DNA of 64,000 nucleotides from Selaginella tamariscina (Eukaryota; Streptophyta; Lycopodiopsida; Selaginellales; Selaginellaceae), in contig PUQB01000067.1 in the NCBI GenBank assembly GCA_003024785.1, positions 397,999 through 461,998 of the forward strand, read 5' to 3'. A program made the position numbers and the translations under genes. This document shows, in pieces, positions 6,430 to 45,721 of the stretch; position 1 is the first letter of the stretch; each line of letters starts with the position of its first letter. Under the pieces are notes generated by a model, which saw only the letters and a list, made by a program, of their open reading frames with translations, was not told where the DNA came from and did no database searches.

Positions 6430-6450
6430 GTTGTAACTAAAGTGGGCATG
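6430..6450 (+). repeat. Left terminal inverted repeat of the 14-kb element
   Basis: Matches the reverse complement of 20549-20569 at 20 of 21 positions; the single difference is G versus A at the 13th base. Confidence 0.8.
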
Positions 6451-6711: not shown

Positions 6712-6966
6712 TTATAAATACTTTCTTCCTATCATACAAAGAAATCTCCTCATTTTGTCTAAATCATCACTCTCCAAATTAATCAAATCATTTTGGTCAA
6801 TATCTTGATGTTGTTGCCACCACTTAACACTCTTACGAATGCAATTGGGAGTTGCCATCCTTGTTAATACATAAGTTGTGATAAGAGAAGGTCTGCATAA
6901 AGGCTCATCTAAAAACTGACGTTCCTTAAGAATAATATTATAAAGCGCCCGGTTGCTATCCTTCAT
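6712..6966 (-). CDS. Small ORF just downstream of the FCP1-like gene
   Basis: An 84-codon reading frame starting MKDSNRALYN lies two bases after the stop codon of the FCP1-like ORF and on the same strand. It is rich in charged and aromatic residues (KWWQQHQDIDQNDL, then DKMRRFLCMIGRKYL). I recognise no family. It is either a short separate gene or the C-terminal tail of the FCP1-like protein cut off by a frame break at the stop; the tight spacing favours the second view. Confidence 0.4.
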   Translation of the reverse strand: MKDSNRALYNIILKERQFLDEPLCRPSLITTYVLTRMATPNCIRKSVKWWQQHQDIDQNDLINLESDDLDKMRRFLCMIGRKYL

Positions 6967-6968
6967 TT

Positions 6969-7599
6969 TTAAAATTCAAAATCACGAGAAAGAAAAGCTT
7001 CAGGAAATGTATGATACGATGGATACTGCTCACAAAAATTTTCGAGATTCTTCTTTCTGAGGCACGTATCCAAGTAGTTCACTAGCTCATCCATGATATC
7101 GGTATCAGAATATGGATCGAAAGTGATTGGATGAATACAAGCAATGTTTTGGTTGAGCATAGCCTTCTGAGGAGAGTCGTCTACCACTAACATCTGTGCG
7201 TTCTTCATTATTCTTAAGCAACTGATCTCCCCATGAGTCCCAATTATTCTTTCATTCTTGAAGAAGTACGGCTTGCTTTCCTTTCTTATATTGTAAAATT
7301 CGAGAGGTTTATAACATATTCGCTGGTCAAAAATCCAATCTTTACGAATCACCTCTTCTGCAACACTACAATGTTTCTTAAGCAAATTCAACAGCAGTGT
7401 TAAGTTATGAATCTGCATGCATGACCAAATCCCCACAAGCGCACCCATTTCCTTAAGCTTTTGAAAGAGACGATCCAATGGTAACGATGTTTGAGCTGCA
7501 TTATTATCCATTTCCTGCATGAACTCTGTCATTCTGACATGTGGCACAAGAAATTGTCGCCAAACCCCTCTCTTACCTCATGCAATGCTGAAAATCCAT
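6969..7599 (-). pseudogene. FCP1/HAD-like phosphatase-domain gene, probably internally deleted
   Basis: The C-terminal two thirds match plant proteins of the FCP1-like (NLI-interacting factor-like, HAD) family: LDRLFQKLKEMGALVGIWSC, CYKPLEFYNIRKESKPYF, then MLVVDDSPQKAMLNQNI and IHPITFDPYSD. VDDSP is the conserved acidic HAD motif. The likely start is ATGGATTTTCAG at 7599, but the frame breaks soon after. The second copy at 63191-64000 contains about 340 bp between GCAGCTCAAA and the LDRLFQK segment, including the HAD nucleophile region (LLDINGVF). That stretch is missing here, so this copy lacks the catalytic start of the domain unless it is spliced in some way I do not see. The gene looks like a captured host gene; its role in the element is unknown. 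Confidence 0.6.
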
Positions 7600-7803
7600 G
7601 TTCTCAATTATTTCATTACATCTGCAAAATGATAATTAGCTGACCTTAAAATTATCAAGGTATATTATTTACCTTGTTAATGTGTGACCCATGTTTGAAC
7701 TAAAAGCTTCATTAATCCTTGAGAATTTATTTTCTGTACAAATATAAAAGAAATATACAAAAATGCCTTATGTTACACTCATTTACAACTATTCATCACT
7801 CTA

Positions 7804-10800: not shown

Positions 10801-10943
10801 ACCTCAATTCCACATCTGAATACAAAAATGATTAGTTCAAGTATCCGAGTATAACAGATTTTATTTTAATTCTTACCCAGAATTTGACGACGACTCCATA
10901 CTAATGACTCGATCTCCTTGTTTGATCAAATCGTCCTTCTGCA
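7804..10943 (-). CDS. ParB-methyltransferase-like protein of the 14-kb element (diverged)
   Basis: A multi-exon gene read from 10943 to 7804. The first coding exon (KDDLIKQGDRVIS) ends at a GTAAG donor near 10884. The next encodes EMGRGILESTWPYF, followed by a frame break near 10515 that one extra T in a T run would repair. A ParB-like segment follows: VNPNFNYRPLNQERVAELM. Further exons give MATKLSEHTREKL and, after an intron (about 9444-9513), a long lysine-rich domain. The C-terminal part aligns with the MULE methyltransferase at 41681-45313: NNFKLPNDW here against EDFQLPW there, and VFDYCTRGSVLKECYLRH against VVDLTVGTGASILAAFHTGR. The position expected to read DPP(Y/F/W) is MDRRVS. It ends in an acidic Ser-rich tail like its homologue. 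It is probably a catalytically dead relative that may still bind DNA. Exon limits are approximate. Confidence 0.62.
9473..9490. repeat. Single palindrome unit inside an intron of the ParB-methylase-like gene
   Basis: GGCGAGATAAATCCCGCC is a near-perfect copy of the array palindrome. It lies inside the intron whose donor is at about 9513 and whose acceptor (TTCCTCAG) is near 9444. The homologous intron of the second gene copy keeps a decayed unit at 61355-61372. Confidence 0.7.
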
Positions 10944-11040
10944 AAATAATACACTATGAATACAAATATATAAAAACGCACACACACTTGTATAAACCCG
11001 AATATACAAAAATAATACACAGAGAGAAGTAGACGTAATT

Positions 11041-11129
11041 AACTGTCCGAAGCTCACATTTGTGCTAGTGCAAAAGAAAGATAACATTTCGTTTTAGAAC
11101 CACCACAAATGTGAGCTCTGGACAGTTTT
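11041..11129. repeat. Imperfect hairpin upstream of the ParB-methylase-like gene
   Basis: AACTGTCC followed by AGCTCACATTTGTG at 11041-11065 is matched by its reverse complement at about 11103-11129 (CACAAATGTGAGCT, then GGACAGTT). The loop is about 38 bases. It sits between the first coding exon and palindrome array 1 and could be structural, a small non-autonomous insertion, or a binding site. Confidence 0.6.
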
Positions 11130-11239
11130 ACATAGATTCCTAGCTTTTACTCGAAATATTAATAAGATGATAAAAGTAAATAAAATGAGATATGCAACTT
11201 ATATATACTAATACACATATATATTCACATGGAAGGTGC

Positions 11240-12485
11240 GGCGGGATTAATCTCGCCACCCCTTCAATGCCTCCTGAAAGAGTGGGCGGGATTAATCTCG
11301 CCACCTTTCTGGAGGCCTTGAACGGGAGTGCGGAATTAATCTTGCCACCCTTCTCGGTCTCAGAGAGAACTGGGCAGGATTTATTTCTCACACCCCTTCA
11401 GTGACTCCAGAAAGGAGGCGGGATTAATCTCGCCCACCATGTAAGGATGGTTAAATGAATTTCCCCACCCTTCCCAATTCTCTCCATTGGTATGTTGTAA
11501 ACCTTCTACGTCTCAGACAGAAACGTTTGGGATTGGTCCGACTCACCAATGGAGAAAAAAGGAAGGGATTCATTCCTCCAACAGGCATTGAAGACTCGGC
11601 GGGATTAATCCCGCCGCCCAGGGCCTTCACTCGGTCCCTATGCGGCGGGATTAATCCCGCCGGACGCCAATTCCCTGCGCGGAATCGGGCGGGATTAATC
11701 CCGCCGCCTAGGCACTTCAGGCAGGCCAATGGCGGCGGGATAAATCCCGCCCGATTCCGCGCAGGGCATGCGTACCGGCGGGATTAATCCCGCCTCCCAG
11801 GCCCTTCACTCGGGCCTTAGTCGGCGGGATTAATCCCGCCGAACGCCAATGCCCTGTGCGAAATCTTGCGGGATTAATCCCGCCGCCTAGGCCCTTCAGG
11901 CAGGCCAATGGCGGCGGGATAAATCCCGCCCGATTCCGCGCAGGGCATGCGTACGCGGCGGGATTAATCCCGCCCACCATGTAAGGGATGGTGAAATTAA
12001 TCCCACCACCCTTCTCAGTTCCCTCCATTGGTATTTTGTAAACCTTCTCCGTCTCAGACAGAGTTAGTCGGGATTGATTCAACATACCAATGGAGGAAAA
12101 AAGGGTGGCGGGATTAATCCCGCCACCGGGTAATGAAGGTTCGGAGAGACTAATCCCGCCGCCCTCTCGTAAATCATGCGCTCACACATATATATTGGCT
12201 GCGGCATTTTGAACAGGGATGGGTGGGGGCGGGATTAATCCCGCCGCTTATATCCTGCGGAAGTGCCTGAGCGGCGGGATTAATCCCGCCGCCCTCCGCG
12301 AAGGGCATGAGCGTGGGCGGATTAATCCCGCCGTTCATGTCCTGCGTGAATTCCCTGGGCGGCGGGATTAATCCCGCCGCCTTACGCGCAGGACATGTCA
12401 TGCAGGCTCTTCGGTTAGCCTTCCGTGCAGGATCTTTCATGCAGGCTCTTCGGTTAGCCTCATGAGCGGCGGGATTAATCCCGCC
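11240..12485. repeat. Palindrome array 1: GGCGGGATTAATCCCGCC
   Basis: The 18-bp perfect palindrome GGCGGGATTAATCCCGCC occurs intact about 11 times (for example 11598, 11644, 11688, 11777, 11823, 11957, 12107, 12228, 12273, 12361, 12468), with several variants (ATAAAT centre at 11734 and 11913; CTCGCC arm at 11240 and 11285). Spacing from 11598 to 11957 is close to 45 bp. Spacers recur in a four-step order, giving a higher-order unit of about 180 bp, and a larger block (11416-11555) is repeated about 541 bp on (11957-12098). That block has its own hairpin built on CTCCATTGGTA and TACCAATGGAG. The array lies upstream of the ParB-methylase-like gene, probably in its 5' leader intron. Confidence 0.93.
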
Positions 12486-12529
12486 GCTCAAGGGGCTTAG
12501 CGTGGTGTGCGAGAGAAAAAATTAATAAA

Positions 12530-13500
12530 TAAAAAATTATACAGATAAAAACACACACATATATATATGTGTGTATATATATATATTTATATATATATAT
12601 ATATATATATGTGTATGTATGTATGTATGTATAGGAGTGTACGTGTGTGTGCAAGAGATGGATAAATAAATAAAATTATACAGTACTGGTACAATATATG
12701 TGTGTACATAGGTATATATATGTGTGTATATGTATATCGTGTGTATGCGTGTGAGCGAAACAAATAAAATCATACAGATAAACAAACACACACACACACA
12801 TATATATACACAGGAGTGTGCGTGTGTGTGCGAAAAATAAAACTAATAAATAAATAAAATTATACAGATAAACACACACATATATATATGTGTGTATATA
12901 GATATATAACCCATAGAGAAAGAGAAAGAGTCTGTGAATATATAAGCATATATATAAACTAGTGTTGTATACTATTTATTAATATGCATTATTATATATA
13001 TATATATGTAAAGCAGTGTGCGTGTGTGTGGGAGAGATAGATCAATAAAAAAAATTATATAGATACTGGTACACATAATATATGTATGTATATATGTATA
13101 TAGGATATATATATGTGTATATGTATATTGTGTGTATGCGTGTGTGAGCGAAACAAATAAAATCATACATATAAACAAACACACACACACACATATATAT
13201 ACACAGGAGTGTGCGTGTGTGTGCGAGAGATAAAAACTAATAAATAAATAAAATTATACAGATAAACACACACATATATATATGTGTGTATATAGATATA
13301 TAACCCTATGAATATATAAGCATATATATAAACTAGTGTTGTATACTATTGTTTAATATGCATGATATATATATATAATATATATATATGTAAAGCAGTG
13401 TGCGTGTGTTGGGAGAGATAGATCAATAAAAACAAATTTATAGATACTGGTACACATAAAATTATACGCACACTCCTATACATATATACATACATACATA
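12530..13500. repeat. TG/TA microsatellites in a tandem duplication of about 390 bp
   Basis: Long (CA)n, (TG)n and (TA)n tracts, many mutually inverted and able to fold back. A block around 12690-12990 (including GTATGCGTGTGAGCGAAAC and AGGAGTGTGCGTGTGTG) recurs at about 13090-13400. Open frames here are repeat artefacts and I see no gene. Confidence 0.8.
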
Positions 13501-13511
13501 CACACATACAC

Positions 13512-13572
13512 ACAGAGATCTCACCTGTGTGCACAGCCGCCGCCGCCGATTTCACAGCCGCCGCCTCTTGAA
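13512..13572 (-). other. Candidate 5' leader exon of the ParB-methylase-like gene
   Basis: On the minus strand a GGCGGCGGC-rich stretch ends at CACACAG followed by GTGAGATC, a strong splice donor near 13515. The first clear coding exon of the downstream gene (10943) is preceded by an ATTTTGCAG acceptor, so a leader intron spanning array 1 would connect them. The MULE methyltransferase has a similar leader exon with a donor near 40901. This is inference from splice motifs only. Confidence 0.4.
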
Positions 13573-13899
13573 ACCCTAAGAATATACCTAAACCCTAAAG
13601 GAATTAAATATATATATTAACCCTAATAGAATATTCCTTCTGAGAATATACTTAAACCCTAAAAAGAAGAAAATATAGATTCGCCCTAAACGAATATTCT
13701 TTCATTATATTATTAGCGCGTGCGTGTGCGTGGGTGTATCACATACACCCCAAAAATATAAATCATGCAGGGATTTAACATGTGTGTGTCCATGAGAGTG
13801 TTAAAGTTTCATGTGTATCAATACATACATACACATTGCATATATTAATACACATAATATATACATACACACGTGTATACACACAGACATACATACATA

Positions 13900-14470
13900 T
13901 TACATGGGTTTAGGGTTTAGGGTTTAGGGTTTTGGATTTAGGATGGATCATGCATGATGTGTATGTATGAGAGAAGAGTGTTGAAAAATTATTTTTGTAC
14001 ACATTTATATATTAGTACACATATATACTTACACATATTATACATAGATATACATACATAGTATATGAGAGAAGAGAGACAGTACATATTATGGATCATG
14101 CATGGTGTGTATTATACACACAGACATACATACATATTAGTACATAATATTAAAGAGACCGAGTACATATTATAGATCATGCATGGTGTGTATGTTTGAG
14201 AGAAAAGAGACAGTACATATTAACATGGATCATGCATGGTGTGTATGTATGAGAGAAGACAGAAAGTACACATATATACATACACATGTGTATACACACA
14301 GACATACATACATATTACATGAGTAAATTCATTGTGTTACATATTAGGGTTTAGGGTTTAGGGTTTAGGATGGATCATGCATGGTGTGAAGAGAGTGTTG
14401 AAAAATTATTTTTGTACACACATGTATACACAGGGTTTAGGGTTTAGGGTTTAGGGTTTGCTCCCAACAA
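13900..14470. repeat. TTTAGGG telomere-like tracts and a dispersed motif of about 32 bp
   Basis: Short runs of the plant telomere word TTTAGGG occur near 13907-13930, 14345-14370 and 14430-14460. Between them a motif beginning GGATCATGCATGGTGTGTAT and continuing GTATGAGAGAAGAG is repeated about five times (near 13942, 14092, 14176, 14225, 14376). The same motif reappears far away near 59947-59983. No coding sequence is seen. Confidence 0.75.
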
Positions 14471-14699
14471 GCTTAATATAAATATTACACATGTAAATTC
14501 AATGTGTTACATACACACAGATTGAGTACATATATCATACATGCGTTGAACATGATGTTTTCAATAAAGAAGCAACATATTTCTTCAGTTTGGTTTAGGG
14601 TTGTGCATGTGTGTGCATATGTGTTTTTGTAAGTTCTTGTTGTAATGCGTGTGTAAATTTATGATTGTGTTTATATATGTGTGCAAAACAAACATCGAA

Positions 14700-15430
14700 T
14701 AATTAAGAAAATAATATTAATAAACACACTATGAACATATTTTAAATTATACATAATAATATATGATTTTATCTAATATATAGCCATATATAGTTTTAAT
14801 AATATATATTAATTTAATATTGATAAAAAGGTTTAACATTGAAATATTCTTGAAATAATAAGAAATTAATTGAGAAAATCCCATTAATATATACAAATGT
14901 AAATTAAGTACTCAAATAATTAACTAAATTAATTATCATAATCATGTTTAATATTGGAATATTCTTGGAATAATAAGAAAATAATAAAGAATATCCCATT
15001 AATATAAAGAAGATTAATTACTCAAGTAATTAAGGAAATGATATTAATATACACACTATGAACATATTTTAAATTATACATAATAATACATCATTTTATC
15101 TAATATATAGTCATATATAGTTTTAATAATATATATTAATTTAATATTGATAATAAGGTTTAACACATGAATATTCTTGAAATAATAACAAATTAATTGA
15201 GAAAATCCCATTAATATATACAAATGTAGAATAATTACTGCAATAATTAAGAACAAGACTAATTTAATTATGATAATCAGGTTTAATATTAGAATATTCT
15301 TCAAATATTAATAAAATAATAAAGAATATCCCATTGATACTAGGAAATGAAAACTAAATACTCGAGTAATTAAGAAAATAATAATAATAAACAGACTATG
15401 AATATATTTTAAATGATACATAATAATATA
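14700..15430. repeat. AT-rich tandem repeat with a period of about 335 bp
   Basis: A block starting CACTATGAACATATTTTAAA at about 14727 recurs at about 15053 with high identity over some 190 bp, and partially again near 15390. The whole stretch is over 75 percent A+T and has no gene. It lies between the two divergent gene sets of the 14-kb element. Confidence 0.7.
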
Positions 15431-15699
15431 TCAATTTATTTATTGTATAAGTATATATTTATATATATATATAATATAAATATACTTGAATACTAAGAAT
15501 GTAGAATATAGTCTAAAATTTCGTAATATTAAACAGCTTGAATCACTTGAATAACATTAAATGCAATTTTAAAATACTCATTGGAACTGGAGAGTATATA
15601 TGTCAGAGTGTCGGATATTTGTGTCAACTCATCTTAAATTTTATTTTCTGTTCTTTTTAAAAAATTTGAATTTCTGACATATGTATTGTCGGTCTGACA

Positions 15700-15890
15700 T
15701 GTAAATTTGAAAATGCATTTAATTTCCCACTCAAATTCAGATCTGGTTCTTTCTCCGGCAAGGGTTTCTTCATTTCTGTATTTTTCACTCTTTAGATCTT
15801 CTTTTTTCTTCATAGTGATCATCTCAGGAGCGAGATTAAATTGGGTGCTATTCTTTATAGGAAAGCACGGCGCCTTCAGTGCTGTTTACA
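15700..15890 (+). other. Candidate 5' leader exon of the transposase-like gene
   Basis: A less AT-rich stretch ends in GTTTACAA followed by GTAAGTAT, a near-ideal splice donor at about 15891. A matching acceptor, TTTATGTGCAG, lies just before the coding start at 16951. The implied intron contains all of palindrome array 2. Not proven without transcripts. Confidence 0.4.
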
Positions 15891-16061
15891 AGTAAGTATT
15901 ATAAACAAATTTAAAAATACTTATAAAGATTCACTCTCTTACATTCTCTCTTAAAATTACAATTTAGGGGTTTAGGAATGCATTAGGATTATAATATATT
16001 CCGTTAGGGATTTATCCCGTTTAAATATCCTTTTAACTTAATATTCTAGGTTAACCGGGGC

Positions 16062-16795
16062 GGCGGGATTAATCCGGCCATTTCTTTTTCGCCTCTTCGA
16101 AAGGTGGCGGGATTAATCCCGCCACCATCTCTCGGGCAATGCTTCTCCGCCACTGAAAAAGAGTGGCGGGATTAATCCCGCCGATAACCTTCTCAACTGA
16201 TGAAGAGTTACCAGAATTTATTAGAAAGAGTTGTCGGCGGGATTAATCCCGCCAACCATTTTAGGAGGCAGGGAAGGGGTGGCGGGATTAATCTCGCCAC
16301 CACATCCCTGTTTTAAAGGATTTGGGGACAGGATTTATCCCGAGATCTCTTTGAAATCATAGTTTTGGAGAGAGTTATGTGCGGGTTTAATCCCGCCACC
16401 CATTCCCCGTCGTAAGAATTGTGGGCGGGATTAATCCCGCCACCTTCCCCTCGAAGGAAGCCGGCGGGATTAATCCCGCCCCTCTTCCCCTCGAGAAGTG
16501 GCGGGATTAATCCCGCCGACTCCTCCGAAGGAAGAGCCGGCGGGATTAATCCCGCCGGACTCCCCCGGGAGGAGAGCGGCGGGATTAATCCCGCCGGCTC
16601 TTCCTCGAGGGAGTCGGCGGGATTAATCCCGCCACTCTCTCCGCGAGGAAGAGTCGGCGGGATTAATCCCGCCGGACTCTCCTCCGGAGGAGAGTCCGGC
16701 GGGATTAATCCCGCCGCTCTTCTCGAGGGAGTCCGGCGGGATTAATCCCGCCGACTCTCCGAAGGGGTTGAGTCGGCGGCGGGATTAATCCCGCC
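16062..16795. repeat. Palindrome array 2 with palindromic spacers
   Basis: About 13 perfect and several variant copies of GGCGGGATTAATCCCGCC. From about 16424 to 16795 the spacing tightens to about 38-40 bp. Many spacers are themselves palindromes of CTCC/GGAG type; the one at 16674-16697 is a perfect 24-bp palindrome around CCTCCGGAGG. The result is an alternating double-palindrome array immediately upstream of the transposase-like gene. Confidence 0.93.
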
Positions 16796-16947
16796 CGACC
16801 GTTCCTCGTCAGTTGTATTAATCAACATGAGATATTATCTCTAAACATAATTATGTATTATTGCATATGCATATTATTAAGTAACCGTAATTCAGATTTC
16901 TTAGAAATATTGCATAAACAGATATCATAAATAATACAATTATTTAT

Positions 16948-19900
16948 GTGCAGGACAATATGTTTAATACTGGAGATAAAGTATGTCTTCTTCGGAACAA
17001 CGAGATAGTTGGCACTGGAACTGTGGAAGTTCGAGATAATAATGCATCATGTCACAATATTGCCCAAGGATCTTGTGTGTACGTATGGGTGAACACCATT
17101 TACAAGCATGTTGAGGTTCTGGGAATGGAATTTGAGGAGGGTTCTCCTGTATTGTGGAATTTGGATGAAGTCAAGGCTGACACAGAATATGCAGAGTCAC
17201 AAACAAATAGTAGCACGAGTTTACCAGATGATGGCTTGCCTGCTGTGATGGATGAGGTGATTCTCTTTCTTCGTGAGATTGAAGTCGGAAGAGGCATCAT
17301 CACAGCTATAAATCCAATGGAAGCAGTGTCAGAAGAGAAACTAGGGTCCGACTTCGTGGGTGTAGTTGTGACAGAGGTTTCACCTAATGGCACATTGTAT
17401 CCTGGATCCCTCGTGAGGTGGCGAACATCTGAATTAAGACGGCAAGATGGTTCAACATATTCTGGGTTGGATTTCAATAATAACAACCCGGAAGAACAAC
17501 TCATATTTGAAGAGGTTCCTTGCATTGGTCCTATTGTAAGAAAAAGGCGATTCATGGGTTGTAGATCTTCCCCTGCAAGTTTCAGCAAGAGGGTAAAGAT
17601 GGATCCTACATCTTCCGAAAGTGTTACGAGCATTTCCACGATTGACTGTTGCAAGAAGAAGTGTTGTCAGATGGCAGACCGGAATGAAATTACCCAATGT
17701 AGACATGTCTTTCGTATGCTCACCCAAAAGCAAAGGCATGAGTTTGTATATGCTGCACTAACTGGGTGTATTGATGGAATGGCCTCGGACACAGGTTATC
17801 AGAGTACATCCATGGTATTTAATAAGGTGGCCATCTGCTTCAAAGCTTGGTACAGTATATACGGGATCCCAAAGACCACGTTCTACCGTCGGAGGGATGA
17901 GTGGCTAGATGGAGCGCGAACCTCAGTTCATGGGAACACTCGCTTGGTCAAAACCCGCTCTCACATCATGGCAGCCATAGAGATACTCAAGGCTTTTGTG
18001 GAAGCAAATGCAGACAGGATGCCTCACAAATGCCGAACCACAAATGCAGGGGTCAGGGAAAATCTCAAGGTTTTGCCTTCAATCTACACTCAATTGAAGC
18101 TGTGTGAACATGTGAACAAGTGCCTCAGTTTGATGGGGCTCCAAGCAATCTGCACTGGTACCTTCAACAACATATGGAATACTCATTTTAAGGATGTGGA
18201 GATTGCAAAACACTCTAGCTTTTCAAGTGTGACACTTGTACATCATTGAAGGCTGCAGAGGCTTGTGCAAAAACCTTGGTGGAGATCACTACCATTCAAA
18301 GAAGATGGAGGCCCACATGATTGCACAACAAACTTGCCGGTCTCAGTACTATGCACACCGCATGCTTTCTGTGTCACGCCCATCAGAGTACCTGTGCTTG
18401 ATCCATGACAAGATGGATCATTCAAAGACCAGCATTCCAAAGCTCTTTGCAACACCAAAGTGCCTTGGAAATGTCATGAAACTTCCGATTTCATTGACAG
18501 GTGTGCTAACACATGGACACGGTTGTGAGTCATATGGACACTTTTCACTTCCACATTGGTCTAGCGACTCCAATTTCACTATTGGGTCGTTAGCCATGTG
18601 TTTCAGAAACCTTGAAGCCCACTCACAGACAAGTCCTATCAGTGATCTCAAAGTGAAGAAACAACACCTTCAACCTTTACATAATGCTCTCATGAACACG
18701 TCTGCACTTGAGGCTACTTGGGAATATGAGAGGCATTGTCAACACCTGCACAAAAAACAGATGGCCCTGTTGAGAGTTCAGGTTCAGTGGAGGGATCTAG
18801 CTCAAATAGTGTACATGTGTCCTCAACATCAAATAAGCTTCCTCGTCATTTGCTTTTACAGATGGATAATTGTGCAGGCGAGAACAAAAATAGGTAAATC
18901 ATTTTACTTAAGGGTTTCTCAAGCTCATACTTACTTTTATTTTCTAGATATGTGCTAGCATACTTGTCAATGCTTGTTGCCAAAGGTGTGTTTGAAACAA
19001 TCACGCTCAGTTTCCTTATGGTTGGTCACACTCATGAAGATATTGATGCGTTCTTCAGCAAGGTCTCCAACTCTACAAAAAGGACAAGTGCACTTACCTT
19101 ACCGCATATGATGAATCTTTTTGAAAATTGCATCTCCAAAAAAAGTTGTGCTTTGCTTGTGACTGAGGTGCCAGACTTCAAAAAATTTCTCAAGGAGTAT
19201 ATAAAAGAAGGGAGTGATTCTTTAGTTGGTCACCTTGTGCCGCTACAATTCTTTTTCTCCATACGAGATGGTATACCTATTATGCAGTACAAGTTACGGC
19301 CATCAGAGCAGGAGTGGTTACCGAAAGAGGGCTTAATGCTCTTCAAAAGTGGAGAGGATGGAAAGCCACTTCTCCCAGAAGGACAACCAGACCCTATTCC
19401 ATTGAGTGCCCAGCTCAAGGAACAAGAGGTTATTATTGATGGCATCAAAAAATATGTGGCATGGGTTCAAAAATCGATGCCAAAGAATTCTGATAAGGCA
19501 ACTGGTTACTCAGAACTATATAAGCATGTGGTCAACTATTGGGAGACTGTTGTTCGAGAGTTGGAAGGGCCTACTGTCACAAGTACAGAATTGCAACACC
19601 CTTTCTGGCCTAAAACAAGGTGGCGAGAGGAGATTGAAATGACATCACTGAGCACAGACGACATAGAAGCCAGTAGTGATGTGGAAGTGCAAACCCCACA
19701 CTTTGTTGGACAAAGGAACCAAAAACCTAAAGCATACTTTGATTGTTGCAAGGATCTTCAAAAACTAATGATGGTTCTCATTACTCCAGATGCGTCATAT
19801 AATCAGCCTATTTGGATGGGTCAAATTATCGACACACCTGAAGTAATCACAAAAAATAGTATTGTTAAGGTTGTTCAAACCAAAAAAAGGCGACACGAGA

Positions 19901-20070
19901 AGGAGAGCGAAAGATATAATGGATGCCTAGAGAAAACATGGTCTCCCAATCAAAAAGACCCAGCATGTTTTATAAATGTTAAATCCATTCGATATGGGTG
20001 GATGTCAAGAAGCGTTGATAAAGTCACGATTAACAAAACTGCAAGGGAATGTATGTTTTCTGAAGCTTAA
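16948..20070 (+). CDS. Transposase-like protein, DUF7869 type, with apparent frame breaks
   Basis: The first ATG in frame is at 16960 (MFNTGDKVCLLRN), just after a likely splice acceptor. The N-terminal 60 residues resemble the TNP1/En-Spm-associated domain (GDKVCLLRNNEIVGTGTV). A Cys-rich CCKKKCC patch and a helical domain follow. Near 18230 the frame breaks; one extra A would give KCDTC, a probable zinc-binding pair. The next segment has LCLIHDKMDHSK (Asp motif). A second break in the A6 run near 18755 is repaired by one more A. Then LQMDNCAGENKNR is joined by a 54-bp GT-AG intron (18894-18947) to YVLAYLSMLV, with GHTHEDIDAFFSKVS downstream. These Asp/His motifs define a family I know as DUF7869, whose RNase-H-like fold I infer. 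It is probably the mobilising enzyme of the 14-kb element. Confidence 0.72.
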
Positions 20071-20548
20071 AGCAATTACAAAATTATAAAATATCATATA
20101 TTTAATATTCATAATTATTATAAACTCTTTAATAATAGTACCAAATTGTATACTTAACTATATAAATTTAAAAAATGATATGGAAGATTGACTATATTAT
20201 TATAGGATTTTATATATATATTATTACTACTACAAATTTTTAATTAATAATGTTATATTTAAATATTAATATTTTAATAACAACATCAATATTTATATAA
20301 TGTACCTCTTATGCTCTTCCTTAATTGTTATATTAGGCAATATATTATATAATTTAATACTTCTACTTTTATAATGTTATTAATTTTTGTTCAATGAATG
20401 CTATAATTTATTAAAGGGTAGAATACAAAATAGAATATTCTAAAGAATATTCTTTTTCAAACATATATTCTAAAGAATATTCCTTTAATATTAGAAAATG
20501 CTAATTAAATAGCTAAAATTGCTAATTATTAGGAAATGGGACTATAGC

Positions 20549-20569
20549 CATGCCCATTTTAGTTACAAC
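20549..20569 (-). repeat. Right terminal inverted repeat of the 14-kb element
   Basis: Inverted partner of 6430-6450; ends AGTTACAAC at 20569. About 480 bp of AT-rich sequence separates it from the transposase stop codon at 20070. Confidence 0.8.
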
Positions 20570-21353
20570 TTGCATATTTGTGTATACTAACCTTGCTTTC
20601 CAGCTTGGATTGGTGGGAAACTTGTTTGTCAATTTCAAAGGAATATACATGTGTATATACATACGTATGATATATGTATATCAACGTTTATAATATGTGT
20701 GTACGTGTACATTTGCAGATGAAAGTTGCAGAAGTTCTTACACACGATGGCAAACCTGTTGCATATGTTGCGGCACCAAACTGAAACAGTACAATAATCT
20801 TTTTGTTGCCTTTGTACATTTGCATGTACATGCTGCATCCGTCCATGTGTGTGCGTGTGTGTGACATTGTCATTATTAATTGATTAATTACTCTTCTCTG
20901 TGCAAATCAAGTATGTCTTGGCTATAATATTTGCTCTATTTATATTATTAAAAAATTATAATATTTATCTGACATGCTTGATATCTCATCCGAAACAAAC
21001 AATTGGGGTGTTGGTTTACCACCAAAGAGCAAGAATGCGCCAATGTGTGTGCCCCTCCCCCTCTCTCTCACACACACACACAAACATTTGCTAGTATTAA
21101 GTGGCCATTCATAATATCAAGATGAGGAAGCTCTTAAGTAATGAATCTTTGAAAGCTCGTCAAAGGCATATTCTCGTATCTGTGGCGAACTTTGAAGATC
21201 TTTAAACATTAGATTCTCTTTTGGTTGAAGACTGTAAATGCTGTATATGTGTGTGTGTGTGTGTTAATAGAAATAGAGTCACTGGTAAAAGACTAATAAT
21301 ATAATATCTCTAATTTAATAATAATAATAATAATAATAATATTGTATATACAG
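20570..21353. other. Flank of the 14-kb element with exon-like remnants
   Basis: Contains a short frame beginning MKVAEVLTHDGKPVAYVAA right after a TTTGCAG acceptor near 20719, and (TG)n/(CA)n tracts near 21065-21080 and 21247-21262. It may belong to the same broken host gene as the limit-dextrinase fragment, but the match of this part is not clear to me. Confidence 0.35.
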
Positions 21354-36296: not shown

Positions 36297-36627
36297 ACAA
36301 ATGTGGAGCCAGTATTTAAATTAAACTCTTTCGGTACTATGCAAGGAGATGCAAGAGGTACAACAACGACATATAATGCTCGGCATTCGTTTATCCCTGA
36401 TTATGTTGTGGGTGATGAAGTACTAGTCTTATATCCGAAAATACATTTCAAAGAGTTGTCCTCTGGACTAATTTCCAAGCGGCTTGGTTCATATTCATTA
36501 TATTTTATTGTATGAAGATTGTGTATTCCCATATCATAATTGACGTTCGAATCTAGAGAAGGGAATAATGTAAGGATCTTACAAAATATACCTTGAATAT
36601 ATCATAATGCATATATTAGAACTATAT
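36297..36627 (+). pseudogene. End of the Gypsy integrase and start of its 3' LTR
   Basis: Resumes the split integrase and reads through DYVVGDEVLVLYPKIHF, typical of the post-integrase GDxVLV stretch, and SGLISKRLGSYSLYFI, then the LTR-like sequence TGTAAGGATCTTAC from about 36570 up to the MULE target site. Confidence 0.6.
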
Positions 36628-36831
36628 GGGGCACGGCGAAATTCGAGCGCAGGTCAACGAGCTTGACCTAGATTTCCGAATATTCTTGAATATTCCGTTG
36701 TTCCGTACGATTTCCGTCTAGATATCCTCGAATATTCTGTACGGAAATTTTTCGTACTGCCAAGTGTACACACAATTGGACCTTCCAAAATTTTCAAGAA
36801 TATTCTAGAATATTCTAGTGCGGCGGCCGCA
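36628..36831 (+). repeat. Left terminal inverted repeat of the MULE
   Basis: Starts GGGGCACGGCGAAATTCGAG and ends with GTGCGGCGGCCGCA at 36818-36831. It contains several GAATATTC words and TGTACGG. Confidence 0.75.
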
Positions 36832-36992
36832 TACAAAATATGGTAGTATATTTTTGTTGTATTTAAAGAAAATATATGTTAAATTACTTAAAAATATGCT
36901 AACATAAAATTACCATTAAAATTTATATTGAAAATTATAAGTTTGAAATAACAAATATAAAACCGAAGCTGTTTGAAAACAAACCAAACACA

Positions 36993-39900
36993 CTAAATAG
37001 ATGGTGGAGGATGGAGGTTCCTTGGTAGCATCAATAAAGAACTTAGTTCACGGGGTGCAAGTGTACGACGTTGCAAATGCTTGACAACTCGAGGATCAGC
37101 TCCCAGTACACGCTTGTAAACAAAATACATATGTTTGCAAGGCACCCACTGACGACCATTGCAGAACTCCGAGCATGAACAAGATGGTGCGCTACAAATG
37201 ACAACCCAAGCAGATGTATGGTCGTTGTCACATACTCTGAAGCGAATGCATGTTGGAGGATCAACCACGTCAACTTCTGCGACATATGCTCCCAACGTCA
37301 AACATGCTTCAAAACTTACCTGTTGTTTCTTAGACATCCCTAAAGGTGTTCTTGTTGCACGACCACTTGCAGGAACAGGAGGTCCACGAAATTGTGCAGG
37401 GGTGTTGAAAATCCAGTGACTCCAACAGGAACTGAAGGAACATGAGGTGTTGAAAAACCTGGCACTCCTGCATGAGCTGAAGGAAGCCCAGCTAGCATAA
37501 AACCTGATCTTGCCAGATCATTGATCTCCATTGCTATCAGCTTCGTGCCCACTTGAACTTTCCAAACCGAGGTAGAAGCTGGCGGAGAAACAATAGTTGG
37601 TCTTGGATGTCTGTTGCAAAGCATGTTTGTTGGACAAAAATACATCATTTGTGAGCGAAAGCATTCTTCACCAGTTTCTTTGTCATTGTATCTGATCCTT
37701 CCAAAAAAACAAGGAGCAGCCACTCGATTACCACTAGGACTGATCTTTTTGTCACAAGCACTCCACTGACCTCCTGAAGAGGGAAAGCCTGCCAGACATT
37801 TCACAGAACTTCTTTCACCACATCTTCTAATCGCCCATTGTCCAGGTGTAACATCTTGTTCTTCAACCAGAACATATTCTTCATGTTCTTCTGCAAGTTG
37901 AAAATCCAATCGTCGCTTCCGTCTACACTGTGTTGGAATAACCTGTTCACTATAGAAGATGTCCGGTCGGTGGGATCGTTCAGCCTCTGACCCCATATTT
38001 CTTTGCACAGTGCGATGTTCAACATTCGTGGCAGCCACAAAAGCAGTATCCTGCATGCTTGATGGAGCAACATCTTCAACTAAGTCGATGATAACCTTTG
38101 CTGTAGGTGTTGTTGAGTTAGCATTTGACATTCTTCTCTCGAACCTTGCTGAGAGCTCCTCTGAAGTCGGCCCGGAACCACTATACCTTCCATCTCTAAA
38201 AGCCTTCACAAGAGCACATTGTCGCACTGATTCAGTCAGGTCGTGGATTGTAGCTTGGTACAATGAAATGTATTTTGAATCTCTAGCCCTCCTCCATCTT
38301 CCGTGAACAGACTCCGACTGGTTTGTCATGGGCACAACCCTTGCAGCATTCTCCGGCATGCTTTCAAGAACAACATTTGAAATATGATTCTTCTGTCTTT
38401 CCCACCATGAAAACCACGTCTGCATAACTCCAACATCCTTCACATTTTCATTCCAAAAGCGGAAAAGATTATTTTCAATTTCTTCACGATCAGTTGTTGA
38501 TGTGGCTGTTGGCCATGATCTCAAAAGTTGAAGATGTTGTTGTTGATGTTCAAGAGGGACCCACTTCCTTGTCACACGTTGTATGGCTTGTTCATAGTGA
38601 AAGATACAGCTCCGTTCACGTCCAGGAATTTCTTGGCCATTAAAGAACACATTCCTAATTGCTTGCCAGATCGCTCCTGCTTCATCGGACATAAACCCAG
38701 CGAACTGCACATTGTAGATTCCCTTCTCGGAACAGACATCCAACATAGCACGAAAAAACTTCTCCACAGCTCCAGCCGTTTGTCTCTTCATGTCACCATA
38801 AGCAATGGTGGATAATCGGCGCACACTATAAAATAATCAAAGAGTTAAGCAAACAACAAAAAGATAACATCTTACTTTGGGTCGTAAACATGCAATGCCA
38901 GAGTGATCCACTTATCAACAACACGGTGTGTGTGATCAAGTAGAACCCAACTCTTCTGCAAAGGGCCAAGAGGAGGTTGGCACATCCTTACATAATCGAT
39001 TCCAGAACCTGGCCCTGAAACCGTCATCTTAAAAACTAATGCCTGGTCGTCTGAACCACGGAAATTCATCCCAGGATAGTGAATCACGTGGATGAATGGG
39101 ATAGACAACCTTCGTTTCAGCTCCAATAATCCATCAATATTCTCTGGCATTTCAGCAGCAGTTCTCTTTGCGGACGCTACCCATTGACGAACTCTGCATC
39201 AAAGGTATTATCAAAGAATGCTCAGCACAAAGTAAAACTCTAATTGTACCTTCGATTGTTTGATAATGGTTGCAAATGATCCATGAGCTTATCCCAACTT
39301 CCAGGCTCAGAATTATCTAATAGGAAACCAAAGATAGCATCTTTACATGCTGCCATTTCGATGACTCTTGGACTAGCTCTGGGAGTTCTTTCTGTTGCAT
39401 TCTGGACCGCCATATGCATTTCTTCTTTGTTCGATGCAGAAACACCATCACCCACTGGATGTGAATGTTTTCCCTGGTGGATAAACAATCTAGTCTTGGT
39501 TATGTCGTCTGGGAAAACGCAAAACGCCACAGCATGACAAACTTCAAGGCACAATGGATTTTCTTTACAGAAAAAACATGTCAATCCTTTTGCCAGTTTG
39601 TCGATTGAAGGTGGGGAAACAATACATCCTTTCCATTTAGTGCAGTTCGGAAATCCTGCCTTAGAAGCAGGGCAGTCCGGGTTGATACAGCAAAGGCTCC
39701 CAACACATTTGCTCCTGGACACCCTCGCTTGAAAATTCCAGTTGCTGGTCGTTCCTGCTGTCCAGGTATGTCCATCCTCTTTCCGATTCATTCCTTTGTA
39801 TTTGTATTCGGAAGGAGGGAGCTCAAAAATGACATCCCCATCATACGCAATAGGCAATTCATTTGTATGAATGATCGTGGAACCCTCGATAAGAATTCTT

Positions 39901-40228
39901 CCCTTTTTGCAGGTATTAGAAGTGAAAAGGTCTTCAACGTTGAGTATTCAGAGTCAGAAGCAACGACAAGCTTAAACAATGGTCCTTCATCCGGTAACAA
40001 AACATATCCTGGATTATCCTTCCCTCCAGCATCTTGGTCCTCGTTTATTTCGATCTCTAAAGCAGATTGCCCATGAAGAAGTTTAAAAAGACGAACACTT
40101 TGCCAATCAAAAATGCCAAAGAACGTTCTAATCTGATTAGTAAGAATGATTCCAACACCATCTATCACAGGAACATCGTGATCCAAATTGCCGTAAACAA
40201 TCCTGGCCATTTTGCAAGCAGTTACCAC
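36993..40228 (-). CDS. MURA-like MULE transposase with SWIM zinc finger
   Basis: Read from 40228 (or from the nearby ATG at 40210, MARIVYGNLD) to 36993. The N-terminal part ends near 39915 at a one-base frame break in an A5 run; one more A would restore KKGRILIEG and the next segment. That segment has a Cys-rich GCM/WRKY-like zinc region (SKCVGSLCCINPDC, later HQGKHSHP). Next comes the catalytic core: SWVLLDHTHRVVDKW, the segment QFAGFMSDEAGAIWQAI, and CIFHYEQAIQRVTRKW. A C-terminal SWIM finger of CxC..CxH form (CSCSEFCNGRQWVPCKH) is at about 37120-37180. Short introns separate the segments. Known role of the family: cut-and-paste transposition in the nucleus with 9-bp duplications. Confidence 0.82.
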
Positions 40229-40849
40229 AAACGTGACAGAAAAACAACAGCATTACTTAATCATCTTTTGGTAAATATCGGATATTACCATTTCAAAAAA
40301 AAATTCAAAAATTGACTCAACGTGGGCGAATATTTAATTCAAGGAAACGTATAGATCTTAGATGCTAATATAGTATAGCACTTCACGTAGAGATAGAGCA
40401 ATCTTTATTGTCTTTTAAATAAATGTGTGTCTAATCTACATTCATCTGACATATTTATTTATGACTTGTTTATATTCTGTTAATTTATTTATTATAATTA
40501 TATAGTTATTTGATCCAGTATTTTATCAAATGTAGATGTTGATTAATACTTGCTCCGCTACCAATTGTCAATTATAAATACATATTTTTACACGAATATT
40601 TATTTAATTATATAATAATATGTTTTTTTAACATACAAATTTTTACTTAAATATGTGTTTGTATTTGTATCCTTTTATATAGTATGTTATTTATCGTAAG
40701 TATTATATATACTGTTGTATGGTTTAATTAAACACAGTTTTATAGTTAAGGGTCAAAGGGTTAAGTGTTAGATTTTAGGGTAAAGGTTCAGGACTACCCA
40801 TTCTTCTTCTCCATTCTCCATTGTTGAGAGAGGGCACTTTTGTTCTTTT

Positions 40850-40901
40850 TTTTGCGGCGACAAGAGGCTAGTGTGAGCGTCACGGCGACATGGCTACAGG
40901 T
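40850..40901 (+). other. Candidate 5' leader exon of the ParB-methyltransferase gene
   Basis: TTTTGCGGCGACAAGAGGC and onward to ATGGCTACAG, followed by the donor GTAAAATC at 40902. Joined to the acceptor TTGCAG at 41679, the upstream ATG gives only a four-codon frame (M-A-T-E-stop), so it would act as a tiny upstream ORF before the main ATG at 41681. Confidence 0.45.
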
Positions 40902-41032
40902 AAAATCTTATATATGTGTATAGTAATTTCTGTGAATGTATGTGCAAATTCAGTAGGATTTCTTTGTATTCACAAACGCACGCGCGTGTGCACACACACA
41001 CACCTCCGACGCATGAGTTATTGCCGATTTCG

Positions 41033-41150
41033 GCAAACACACACACACACACACACATTTCCTGCCAATTCGGGCAGGAAATCTGCCGCCTGGATGGTGC
41101 GGCGGCCGCACCATCTGGCGGCAGGATTCCTGCCCAATTCGGGCAGGAAA

Positions 41151-41190
<40 letters not shown>
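41033..41190. repeat. Large CpG-rich inverted repeat inside the putative leader intron of the methyltransferase gene
   Basis: A (CA)n tract, then TTCCTGCCAATTCGGGCAGG, then a 23-bp palindrome GATGGTGCGGC-G-GCCGCACCATC (about 41094-41116) flanked by CTGCCGCC and GGCGGCAG, then a second TTCCTGCCCAATTCGGGCAG, then a (TG)n tract. The whole block of about 155 bp is close to one inverted repeat and could form a cruciform. Its core GTGCGGCGGCCGCA (41097-41110) is identical to 36818-36831 in the left terminal repeat. Confidence 0.9.
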
Positions 41191-41194
<4 letters not shown>

Positions 41195-41680
41195 TGCGCA
41201 CACACATAAATAACATTTTACACACGTATGATTATACAACATTAGACTTGTATACATGTGTGTGTGTATATATAAATATATATATTTAAATACATACTTA
41301 AAAAGACTTATATATATATATATATATTATTATGTATGTATGTATGTATAAGTATATGAATTTAAGACTTGTATATATGAGATGATGCTTTTTCGTCTGT
41401 ATATACATGTGAAGAGATATGAATATACCCATATTCTCTCACACAGACACATCACAAAACACAAACAACATTGCACACACACACACATAATCAACATTAC
41501 ACACATACACAAGGAACATTATATAGTGAGCACACACACAAACAACATTACACGTATAAATATGTGTGTGTGTGTGCGTGTGTGTCTATATATATTGATA
41601 GGTATACATATATAGTAAATGTGTGTCCATAAATTAAAACAACTCACACACACACACTTATCAGTTGTTGTAATTGCAGA

Positions 41681-44600
41681 ATGAGACAAAGGCAGAGTAA
41701 GAGACTACGAGATAAATACAAGACTTTGACACTTCAAGAACATATCGTCCAAGAAGCTCTTGCAGATATGGCTCCAAAACCTCGTGGCAAGAAAGGAGGC
41801 CGAGGCGCCAAGCAACAACTGCAACACAAAGAGATGATGCCGACGAACAATGAACCTGTGGATAGTTCGCAAGTCATTGATGAACATACTGTGGTGAGTG
41901 AATGGATGCCTAGAAATAGGGAGATTGCAGGAAGCTCTGCAGAACACGGTAATGCAGAGGAAGTACCGGATATTGATCTTGGTAGTAAAATGTTCAATAA
42001 GAAGAGGAAACTGGATGCTCCTGAGGATGTTGCCGAATCATATGCAATTCCGGAGCGGCTGACACTTGAGGCTCCATCCAAGCTTCTTCGGGATCTTGTT
42101 ATTCGGTATGACACAGATATTGACACATCGCTACAAGGACGAGACCACTACGTTCCAGTTGAGCTTGGTGAGCCTCCGCGTATCCCGGTTCACAGGTTGC
42201 TCCCACACCAACGTTTGAGGAATGTCACTAAGGACGGCGTGAAAGACCTTGTTGGATGGATTAGAGCTGAAGGATTTTACCAGGAGACGTCAGTGTTCAC
42301 CTTATCTTTCGGACCACAGCTGAGTGCAGACGAACGCCGAAGTTGGAATGAGTCAGAAGCACAGGTCGATAGAGAGTTTGAAGCGGATTTGCATAAGCCA
42401 GCATTTTCTGCATGGTATCGATTTCTGAAAGATGCAAAGTTTCTGGTGTGGGATGGGAATCATCGTCGGGTTGCTTTGAACACTTTGCTTGCTGAAGAGC
42501 CAGGTTTGAAATGGACTTTGCGTGTACGTGCAACACTCATAGCATCCACAGTGCAAGAGGAGAAGAGACTAATCGCTGCTTGCAATCGGTTGAATGAGTA
42601 AGTGACTTGTTTGTTTCATTATTTAAATACTAAATAAATGTTGTTTTGTTTTGCAGAGCAACTGCTCGTGTGGTTCCTACAACAATCATTCACACCTTGC
42701 AGTTCTTACGGAATTGTTGTGTGAAGTCTGCAGATCTTTCTACCGATCATGTTCTTCGCGGGATGCCGGAGGAAGATAGAAAAGCTGTGGAAGTGTGGAG
42801 ATCGAACAGAAAAGAAGACGTTTGGTACGAGTATCCAAAGACGACATTGGTGAAGATTTTTTGGGAGGTAATCTTTTCTTCTTCTTTTGACTGTTTTTTG
42901 ATTTTCGGTTTCTTTTGCAGAATCAACTGAAGCGACAAATCGCTACAAAACTTGCGAACAGAAAACCAAACCAGACAGAATCTCAGATCCTCTCCAGCGT
43001 TTACAAGACATTCACAGTTCGGATGAACAAATTCCTCACCATTGCTGATCCGGCGGTCGGTGAAGATTGGTTCAAGGCGATCACAGATATCACTATCAAA
43101 CCATCAACGAAGCAAATAACTCTGGAGAAGCTTCAAATGCTCGCGAAGTCCCAGCTTCCTTCCAACGTCAAGGTTGATATCCTTGGAAAGCTTGTGCACA
43201 TTCAAGAACGTGGCGTTCTTGAGAAGCTGGTGAACATGACGGAGAAAGACAAGAAGGAAGGTGTCACCGGCTGGCCTGACAAGGACTTCATCAAGTTTTT
43301 GCACATCTTTACTTACTGGTTCCAGGTAATTTAATATTTATATTTTTCATTTTTATTCGTTTTATCGTGCCAGGTCGCGGAGGCAGCTAAAGAGCTTTTG
43401 GTCGAGCATGTAGAGGAGTTCATGACATGGTATATGAAGATGCACAATGAAATTAAGTTGGATATGTACCAGAACATGCTCGAGAACAAGGAGTTCGGTG
43501 CGACAATTCCACCTCCTCGACTATTTGAGCTGGAAAAATCTGCAAAAAGAATGGCATTCAGGCAAGTTTTTTTTTTGTTTCTTTACAGATTTTTATCTAT
43601 TTTTACAGGTTTTTAAAATGGAAGAACGATGCACTCCCTGAAGATTTCAAAGAGTGGATGGATGTTACCAAGGATTCTAGCATGTGGAGCCGGTTGTTAC
43701 GTGATATCAGTGATTACGAAGTGGAACACTGTCCTTTCTGGCTGGATTTCCTTCCTGGTGACTGTCCCGAATGGGAGATGGCCAGCTATAAGATACACAA
43801 GGATGATCGGCGAGAGCTATTATGGAAGAACGACAATGCTGCAAGGAAGCTCCATGTGAAGATGGATATCAGGTATGCTAGATCGGCGAGCAAGGTCAGC
43901 AAGGGACAAGCTTCTTCTTCAGCCCCATCCTTCATCTCGGCTGGATTGGAAGAAGATGATATGTTGAGGATGGTGATGCCTGAGAAGGGAAATGGAAGCT
44001 GGGAAATCATTCATGCAGATTCAGAGAACCTTGCAGTCCAGTACTTCAAAGCCGGAAGGCCTTTTCCGTCAGGATTGAAGGAGCTTGAGGATTGGATCGT
44101 GAGTCACAAGTCAAGTTGGACTATTCATGTGTTTGGTGCGAAGCCTCCACCAAAATGCATCCAGGGAGCTGTTGATCTCGTTGTCATCGACCCGCCTACC
44201 GGATGCGTTGCTGAGGCAGGCGGGATGGTGGATCAATACACGAAGTTCTCGGATGCTTTGCTGAAGAACTTGGTGAACCTTGCTTTCGGGATATTAGACA
44301 GAGCTGGCCATGTGGTAGTGTTTGTGCTACCGGATGATGTTCTAGCTTTGAAGAACACTGCAGAAACTTGCAAGCTAAAGTTTCTGCAGATGAGTTATGT
44401 GCACACGACAAAGTCATGGGGATACCGTTTCTCTAGAAAGGTAATTCTTCTTTTTGAGAATGTCATTTTTTAATGTTTATTTTTTCAGGAAAGCATCATT
44501 GCCATGTGTATTTTTGGTTCCCCCTACTCTAAGGTTGCCAAGAACAAGGAGATCTTGGACACTCGCTACACTCTTCTTTTTGATGAGCCAGAAGATTTCC

Positions 44601-45313
44601 AGCTCCCATGGTATAATGTTGTTTGTTATTTCTCATGTTCTAATATTGTAACTTTCAGGATTTCAATTGGCCCGAAATCTCCCAAGTTGTTTGCGATGCT
44701 AGTGGAGAAGCTCACAAAGCCTGGTGGAACTGTTGTGGATCTAACAGTGGGAACCGGTGCTAGTATTCTTGCAGCTTTTCACACAGGGAGACATGGTTAT
44801 GGAATCGACATCAACAAGGATCTGGTTTTAGCAGCCAGAGATGTCTTCAGGAAGGTCATTCCAAGTGTTACAGCAGCTGAAGGTGGTGGGGATGATCAAG
44901 TTGTTTCCATGATTACTCCTTTTGATGAGTGGAAGAGGGCCATGGAAACAGAAGCACAGGATTTGCCTTTGGCTAGCGACAACGATGGAGACCAGGATCC
45001 GCCTTCTCGAAACGACAAGGATGTTGTTACGGAGAAGTCCGTGGAGCACAACGACGAGTCATCAGATGAGTCAGCAGAAGAGAGATCATACGAGTCATCA
45101 GATGATGAGTGAGATTTGTTTTATCATTTCTTTGGTTTTAAACTTTAATATGTTTTCAGTATTGTTCTACCAGACTACGCTAATCAGATGGCAAAGAAAA
45201 TGGTTGAAGAGTTCGAAGTTTACGACAGACAGATTTTGGAGAAACGTTCACGACACCGTAACAATGCATTCATTAACGACGAGGCACTGGCTGGTGGAAA
45301 CGAGTCTTCATGA
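41681..45313 (+). CDS. ParB-domain/beta-class DNA methyltransferase fusion protein of the MULE
   Basis: Eight short introns give one open frame of 1092 codons. Exons: 41681-42597, 42657-42867, 42921-43325, 43374-43561, 43609-44440, 44489-44610, 44659-45108, 45160-45313; all splice phases agree. Residues about 160-290 form a ParB/Srx-like domain: PRIPVHRLLPHQRLRN and WDGNHRRVALNTLL (Asp at 258). A helical middle region follows. The methyltransferase fold has motif IV as VVIDPPTG (Asp 768) before motif I, VVDLTVGTGASILAAFHTG (Asp 919), then GIDINKD. That order (IV before I) is the beta class, as in CcrM and phage ParB-methylases. The aromatic residue of DPP(Y/F/W) is Thr, so activity is uncertain. 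An acidic Ser-rich segment follows motif I before the C terminus. One intron (43562-43608) is GC-AG. Probably acquired from a prokaryote or virus by an ancestor of the element. Confidence 0.85.
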
Positions 45314-45500
45314 TTGAGTTATGTTTTTATTGTAATTTTTATTTAGTTTGATGCGGTATTTATATAAAAATATAATTATAGTTATAAATATAAATATTAA
45401 AAAAATAAAAACATAAATATAAATATAAATATATAAATATATATGTCAGATTAACCCCCAAATTTGTGAAACTTTGACACATTACCGTGCCGCCATGATT

Positions 45501-45621
45501 GCCCGCCCGCCGCACCAGAATATTCTTTATATGAAAACGAATATTCTGTACGGAATGGAATATTCCGGTATGACGGAAATCCGTACGCTCGGCAAACTGC
45601 GCTCGAGGAAATGTCAAACCC
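45501..45621 (-). repeat. Right terminal inverted repeat of the MULE
   Basis: Read inward from 45621: GGGTTTGACATTTCCTCGAG, CGCAG, CCGTCATACCGGAATATTCC, and GGTGCGGCGGGCGG near 45501-45515. Shares spacing and words with 36628-36831 but is shorter. Confidence 0.7.
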
Positions 45622-45721
45622 GAACTATATATGGATGACACATAGGACAAAAGAATTAAATCACTTAACCTCTTTGAAGGGTTTGATAACTTTGTATGTA
45701 TCCTTAAAGTTGAGTACATGT

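Follow-up and report, generated by a model that had tools for sequence, protein, structure and literature searches.

A Mutator-like transposon family of Selaginella tamariscina with a gene for a ParB-like and methyltransferase-like fusion protein and palindromes clustered at its ends

The window analyzed here is a 64,000-nucleotide stretch of the Selaginella tamariscina genome (assembly GCA_003024785.1, contig PUQB01000067.1, forward-strand positions 397,999 to 461,998), and all coordinates below are positions within it. It contains a transposon that we assign to the Mutator-like elements (MULEs) and, together with its close copies, call family F1. The element holds two divergent genes: one for a MURA-like transposase and an accessory gene whose predicted product joins a ParB-like region to a part that resembles amino-methyltransferases (Table 1). 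A first-pass annotation, made from the letters of the sequence, had proposed these boundaries, a perfect 9-bp target-site duplication (TSD) and long terminal repeats; all three are confirmed, the repeats being imperfect. The element lies between two identical copies of GAACTATAT, and a 10-bp exact core, TCGAGCGCAG, is common to both terminal inverted repeats at an equal offset from each end. A further inverted repeat lies between the two genes and has a GC-rich centre flanked by CA and GT tracts; it varies among F1 copies and may contribute to a promoter that the two divergent genes share.

Table 1. Features of the F1 element and of its accessory gene in the window
Feature	Position	Strand	Remarks
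Family F1 MULE	36628..45621		8,994 bp
Left 9-bp TSD, GAACTATAT	36619..36627		
Right 9-bp TSD, GAACTATAT	45622..45630		
Left terminal inverted repeat, imperfect	36628..36750		about 120 bp; extent judged from alignment
Right terminal inverted repeat, imperfect	45500..45621		extent judged from alignment
Five GAATATTC palindromes, left end	36678..36815		at 36678, 36688, 36730, 36798, 36808
MURA-like transposase gene	36993..40210	minus	3 predicted exons: 39250-40210, 38876-39193, 36993-38825
Inverted repeat between divergent genes	41034..41174		33-nt arms, 91% complementary
ParB-methyltransferase-like gene	41681..45312	plus	8 predicted coding exons
Accessory-gene exons 1-4	41681-42597, 42657-42867, 42921-43325, 43374-43561	plus	predicted
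Accessory-gene exons 5-8	43609-44440, 44489-44610, 44659-45108, 45160-45312	plus	predicted
ParB-like (DndB-like) region, residues 119-305	42035..42597	plus	
DGNHR box, residues 258-262	42452..42466	plus	invariant in F1, F2, F3
Motif IV position, DPPT (DLPN in F2, F3)	44189..44200	plus	
Motif I, S-adenosylmethionine (SAM)-binding, DLTVGTGAS	44738..44764	plus	
Three GAATATTC palindromes, right end	45518..45565		at 45518, 45539, 45558

The accessory gene can be read through 1,092 codons with agreeing splice phases, as the first-pass annotation had it, although over eight predicted coding exons and not the nine given there. Its seven predicted introns are 47-59 nt long, six of them with GT-AG borders and one with GC-AG. 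The C-terminal part of the protein is beta-class N6/N4 amino-methyltransferase-like, an assignment well supported by profile matches and by the SAM-binding motif I. The Pfam family PF01555 (N6_N4_Mtase) matches residues 897-950 of the F1 protein (E 3.8e-8, 34.0 bits against a cut-off of 26.7) over profile positions 165-218 of 221, which upholds the methyltransferase fold proposed in the first-pass annotation, and the same profile is found at E<=1 in the proteins of all three families described here, F1 to F3 (best 3.4e-9). A match to phrog_67 (7.6e-11) is longer, spanning residues 640-1023 with motif IV included. When the profile of the three families is compared with solved structures, it matches MboIIA (8.4e-6), CcrM (3.2e-5) and DpnA (3.9e-4), in each case in the motif X/I half only. 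A Pfam scan of the accessory protein gave no unrelated family above the cut-off.

The N-terminal part contains a DGNHR box that, judged by eye, may be equivalent to the phosphate-binding Box II motif of ParB/Srx proteins. We infer a ParB fold for this part from the box, from weak matches to DndB and from the pairing of the two domains known from phages. A profile of the ParB-like region, run against a protein database, matched one of 3,343 candidates, P0001 (E 9.5e-14, 25% identity), which suggests that the accessory-protein family is present beyond this genome. P0001 is a 178-aa environmental protein encoded on a 1,841-base contig, and it contains the string WDGNHR. Protein-database searches with the F1 protein alone (threshold E<=1) and with the F1-F3 profile (threshold E<=0.1) each gave no match among 7,999 scored candidates. 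For contigs of viruses and of prokaryote genomes the scan was limited to two short peptide patterns; these gave 19 and 42 pattern matches, respectively, and none of them was confirmed.

Further copies of F1 were sought in the whole assembly (300.7 Mb, 1,391 contigs) with one 832-bp exon of the accessory gene as the query. The search returned 146 first-look candidates; 40 were scored, and every one of them is near-identical to the query over at least 826 bases, with the maximum score reached at 25 places, the window's own included. The copy numbers are lower bounds. We sampled 20 of the 39 other scored places, most of them high-ranking, and together with the window these make up the 21 copies referred to below. 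All 20 sampled copies carry both genes, at least in part, inside the element, which speaks against a chance bracketing of the gene by the terminal repeats, no search having been aimed at gene copies outside any MULE. Two copies are incomplete: L018 runs into undetermined bases (N) within the accessory gene, and in L022 the element is interrupted by a long stretch of N.

Chance does not account for the element boundary, because the left end is common to all 20 sampled copies and the right end to 19 (the other being L018), and because 11 of them have perfect 9-bp TSDs, all different. Two others (L024 and L028) have a shared target duplication of 8 bp, and for the remaining seven none was found, one of these having N at its end. 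L025 and L026 have the same nine bases on both flanks and are thus probably one duplicated site. Across the 21 copies of the accessory gene, indels left out, there are substitutions at seven of 3,278 exon sites and at none of 354 intron sites; the burst of F1 is therefore very young, and sequence identity among copies is by itself no proof of selection. The 1,092-aa accessory protein is identical in 10 of the 21 copies, and four copies (L009, L012, L016 and L026) have both the accessory and the transposase gene intact. F1 is a high-copy, recently active MULE family of which the accessory gene is an integral part.

The transposase is open through 1,037 aa, with a SWIM-like finger at its end, in seven of the 21 copies and interrupted in 12, the window copy among them; L022 and L024 were outside this assessment. 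The window element is thus not an intact autonomous MULE: its transposase has two frame breaks that are absent from intact copies. A strict splice search of the window copy found no path, and a looser one found convincing introns at two of the four frame changes, leaving the other two as frame breaks. A core piece of the F1 protein matches the MULE domain PF10551 below the cut-off (E 0.006, profile positions 2-96 of 99), and the same model matched neither the whole 1,037-aa protein nor two core pieces from family F2. The SWIM model PF04434 reaches its curated cut-off exactly in F2 (19.6 bits against 19.6) and is weak in F1 (E 1.8), where the CxC...CxH spacing of the finger is visible by eye. 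Of the MURA-like transposase with SWIM finger that had been claimed, the finger thus stands at the cut-off in F2, while in F1 it is weak and the MULE domain remains below threshold. It is chiefly the 9-bp duplications, the inverted repeats and the F2 SWIM finger that make F1 a probable MULE family.

The PF01555 profile was also used to search the genome for relatives. There were 739 first-look candidates, and all 150 that were scored, the window's own place not being one of them, exceed the curated cut-off. Twelve of these loci, picked across the score range, were inspected in DNA. Five belong to a family F2 (L029, L030, L035, L036 and, by its end only, L042) and seven to a family F3 (L031-L034 and L037-L039). 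F2 has the two-gene layout of F1, its MURA gene and accessory gene being divergent, and the MURA genes of F1 and F2 look by eye to be of a common lineage; its TSD, also judged by eye, is TTTTAAATT, perfect in L030 and matching at 8 of 9 bases in L029. The F3 loci have the accessory gene, often frame-broken in the sampled copies, and their right ends are similar. One of the seven F3 pieces (L033) showed MURA-like frames, which there share the strand of the accessory gene; these pieces are 5.7-5.8 kb long, and the listing of frames covered the sense strand.

The proteins of the three families can be aligned along their length, those of F2 and F3 being 28 and 30% identical to that of F1. Over 517 codons compared between F2 (L029, L035) and F3 (L032, L038, L039), synonymous change (pS) is 0.838, which is saturated, and replacement change (pN) is 0.253. 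Because replacement change is so far below synonymous change, the comparison indicates purifying selection on the accessory protein between these two sister families. F1 is too diverged to inform on this point (replacement 0.50 and 0.49, synonymous 0.77 and 0.76, against F2 and F3 respectively).

The ends of the elements share a second kind of feature, the 8-bp palindrome GAATATTC. The five left and three right sites of the window element are all present in 15 of the 21 F1 copies, at least one being missing in the other six (L018 lacks the right end), and the middle of the element is free of the palindrome in all 21. The one complete F2 copy examined has six in its 300-bp ends and none in its interior, and two more F2 right ends have three each. 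In F3, two or three lie near the right end at all seven loci; L034 has two more that were not placed, and L037 has one past the element end. In Markov shuffles of the F1 ends the mean is 0.03 GAATATTC per 500 bases and the maximum two in 5,000 shuffles, against eight observed, and the commonest 8-bp palindrome of any kind occurs at most three times in 1,000 shuffles. The palindrome was chosen after inspection of the F1 ends, so that the F1 counts are descriptive; more independent evidence comes from its reappearance in F2 and F3. Outside the F1 element and a probable second element described below (element 2), the window has no GAATATTC in 40.9 kb, where about one is expected. The spacings below 60 bp are 10, 42, 10, 21 and 19 bp in F1, 22, 10, 11 and 22 bp in F2, 20 and 10 bp in F3, and 21, 12 and 30 bp in element 2; by inspection, many of them are near whole helical turns. 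The clusters of GAATATTC at the ends of F1 and F2 and at the right end of F3 are new here, and we propose the palindromes as candidate target sites of the fusion protein.

The reading that we favour, and that we hold about as readily as we doubt it, is that this MULE accessory protein combines a ParB/Srx-superfamily-like module with a beta-class amino-methyltransferase and acts on the element's own ends. The ParB-like part would bind the GAATATTC palindromes near both ends, perhaps as a clamp switched by a nucleoside triphosphate (NTP), and the SAM-binding part would then methylate or occupy the end regions. Such marking could shield the ends and the divergent promoters from host silencing, or flag the ends for the transposase. 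The action would be akin to that of VANC, the anti-silencing proteins which VANDAL MULEs of Arabidopsis encode, except that the protein here is of bacterial or phage type. The DNA clamp, the target site, the methylation and the anti-silencing role are all inferred from sequence.

Several observations weigh against this reading, and they bear on both halves of the protein and on the palindromes. The match of the N-terminal part to DndB (PF14072; E 7e-4) is weak and partial and does not reach the curated cut-off of either Pfam or NCBIfam, and no ParB model was matched in Pfam scans of the accessory proteins; what stands of the ParB-like domain claimed in the first-pass annotation is thus the conserved DGNHR box, with weak DndB matches beside it. 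In beta-class enzymes the canonical motif IV is (D/N/S)PP(Y/F/W), with an aromatic last residue. The corresponding segments read VVIDPPTG in F1, VIFDLPNG in F2 and IILDLPNE in F3, so that D-x-P alone is invariant, the aromatic residue is missing in all three families and the first proline also in F2 and F3. Catalysis may have been lost with this unusual motif, and methyl transfer by the fusion protein is putative. A methyltransferase half that is catalytically dead, in a protein that works as a SAM- and NTP-binding clamp and helps the transposase to pair or protect the ends with no DNA mark, is on balance improbable, if still worth keeping in view. It would agree with a motif IV of DPPT or DLPN beside a conserved motif I and DGNHR box, and it suits the confinement of the Pfam match to positions 165-218; against it, all three families keep D768 and P770 of the D-x-P core and the phrog_67 match takes in motif IV. 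The palindromes for their part also occur in the flanks, at 3 per 10.5 kb for F1 and 1 per 10.5 kb for F2 and F3, and the 68-bp gap at the F1 left end and the 12- and 30-bp spacings of element 2 depart from helical spacing.

The palindromes could instead serve the transposase, given the common MURA lineage of F1 and F2, and pairs of them 10 bp apart read GAAnnTTCnnGAAnnTTC, a pattern that the consensus of the heat-shock element fits. That the arrays are transposase-binding sites or stress-linked heat-shock elements, with the fusion protein acting elsewhere, is a serious contender that we put somewhat short of an even chance. Spacings of 11, 19, 21 and 22 bp are out of heat-shock register, and element 2, a putative mobile element in which an unrelated DUF7869 gene accompanies a gene that is probably ParB-like, carries GAATATTC close to its ends as well. 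We consider it very improbable that the accessory gene is a neutral passenger, captured as in Pack-MULEs. The indels, substitutions or gaps that leave the protein changed or incomplete in 11 of the 21 F1 copies (some perhaps assembly errors) and the frame breaks of F3 would suit such a passenger, whereas the occurrence of the same gene in families diverged to 28-30% identity with F1 and the low replacement change between F2 and F3 would not. The bacterial or phage type of the domains might also raise the suspicion that the union of a plant transposon with a bacterial gene is a product of contamination or misassembly. To this we attach next to no credence: the gene has seven predicted short introns, and it was found in 20 of 20 copies whose flanks differ except in one pair, 11 of them with different TSD pairs.

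Element 2, the probable second large element, occupies window positions 6423-20576 and is bounded by 28-bp inverted repeats that match at 26 of 28 positions. It contains a DUF7869 gene (E 9.6e-27) that is split in frames, an 18-bp palindrome, GGCGGGATTAATCCCGCC, that occurs 24 times without mismatch and is grouped into two arrays (11598-12468 and 16106-16778), and, besides the GAATATTC near both ends, five more inside. A frame-broken gene on its minus strand (gene C, 6969-10865) is only probably ParB-like, because its profile matches are weak: the piece at 9710-9829 is the best non-self match of the F1-F3 profiles among 709 open reading frames (E 0.15 with A2 and 1.1 with A1), and another piece has an hhalign probability of 1.4. 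Homology of gene C to the F1 gene was considered and rejected, as there was no significant match (best blastp value 0.74). Its methyltransferase part has no Pfam match and its identification is a guess by eye. An open frame beside gene C (6972-7577, minus) has a weak, below-cut-off match to NIF/FCP1-like phosphatases (E 8.9e-4). Elsewhere in the window, a Myb/SANT-like protein is encoded at 2036-2776 on the minus strand (PF13837, E 8.8e-9), adjoining a frame at 1108-1566 that looks Harbinger-like by eye.

A wider picture is that transposons of a vascular plant encode a general marking system resembling partition, in which several MULE families and perhaps the unrelated DUF7869-type element of this window would combine ParB-methyltransferase-like proteins with parS-like end palindromes for clamp loading and DNA marking, and so be shielded from silencing. 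We offer this as a speculation that is doubtful at present.

The first-pass annotation knew of no transposon with a ParB-methylase, but ParB-methyltransferase accessory genes are already in print for algal transposons (PMC12477816). Sola1-1_Ec32 of Ectocarpus is like F1 in being a DNA transposon that encodes, on the strand opposite the transposase, a protein of about 1,100 aa with ParB-like and N4C/N6A methyltransferase parts, and its authors suggest that the protein binds and modifies its own transposon (PMC12477816). Compared by description only, the two differ in that Sola1-1_Ec32 is a 21.5-kb member of the Sola superfamily from a brown alga and F1 is a MULE from a land plant (PMC12477816). 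Transposons of green and red algae have the same kind of protein, as cited there (Iyer 2011; Petroll 2025, in PMC12477816). The literature covered by titles and the beginnings of abstracts had no ParB-methyltransferase in a MULE or a land plant, which does not establish absence from print. With the present family, the range of the ParB-methyltransferase accessory gene, so far published for algal transposons, comes to include a Mutator-like element of a land plant, and selection on the protein together with a concrete candidate site permits a direct test of whether plant transposons write DNA marks other than 5-methylcytosine (5mC) on themselves.

Domain combination also links F1 to phages, in which ParB-N6_N4 methyltransferase fusions are described (PMC12704722) and to whose phrog_67 the F1 methyltransferase half matches; F1 stands apart from them in that tblastn with an 837-aa stretch of its protein gave nothing at E<=1 among 50,697 phage records. 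DndB, termed a ParB-superfamily protein (PMC10853773), shares with F1 a DGNHR-type box and a weak partial match, and differs in that this match stays below the curated cut-offs. The closest functional likeness may be with the VANC proteins of VANDAL MULEs, drawn here without sequence comparison. They too are encoded by accessory genes of elements in which a short motif is repeated in non-coding parts, and VANC21 binds such a motif (YAGTATTAY) in its own element (PMC5735166). They differ from F1 in that methylation is lost through the action of VANC, for which binding has been demonstrated (PMC5735166), whereas binding by the F1 protein is a proposal.

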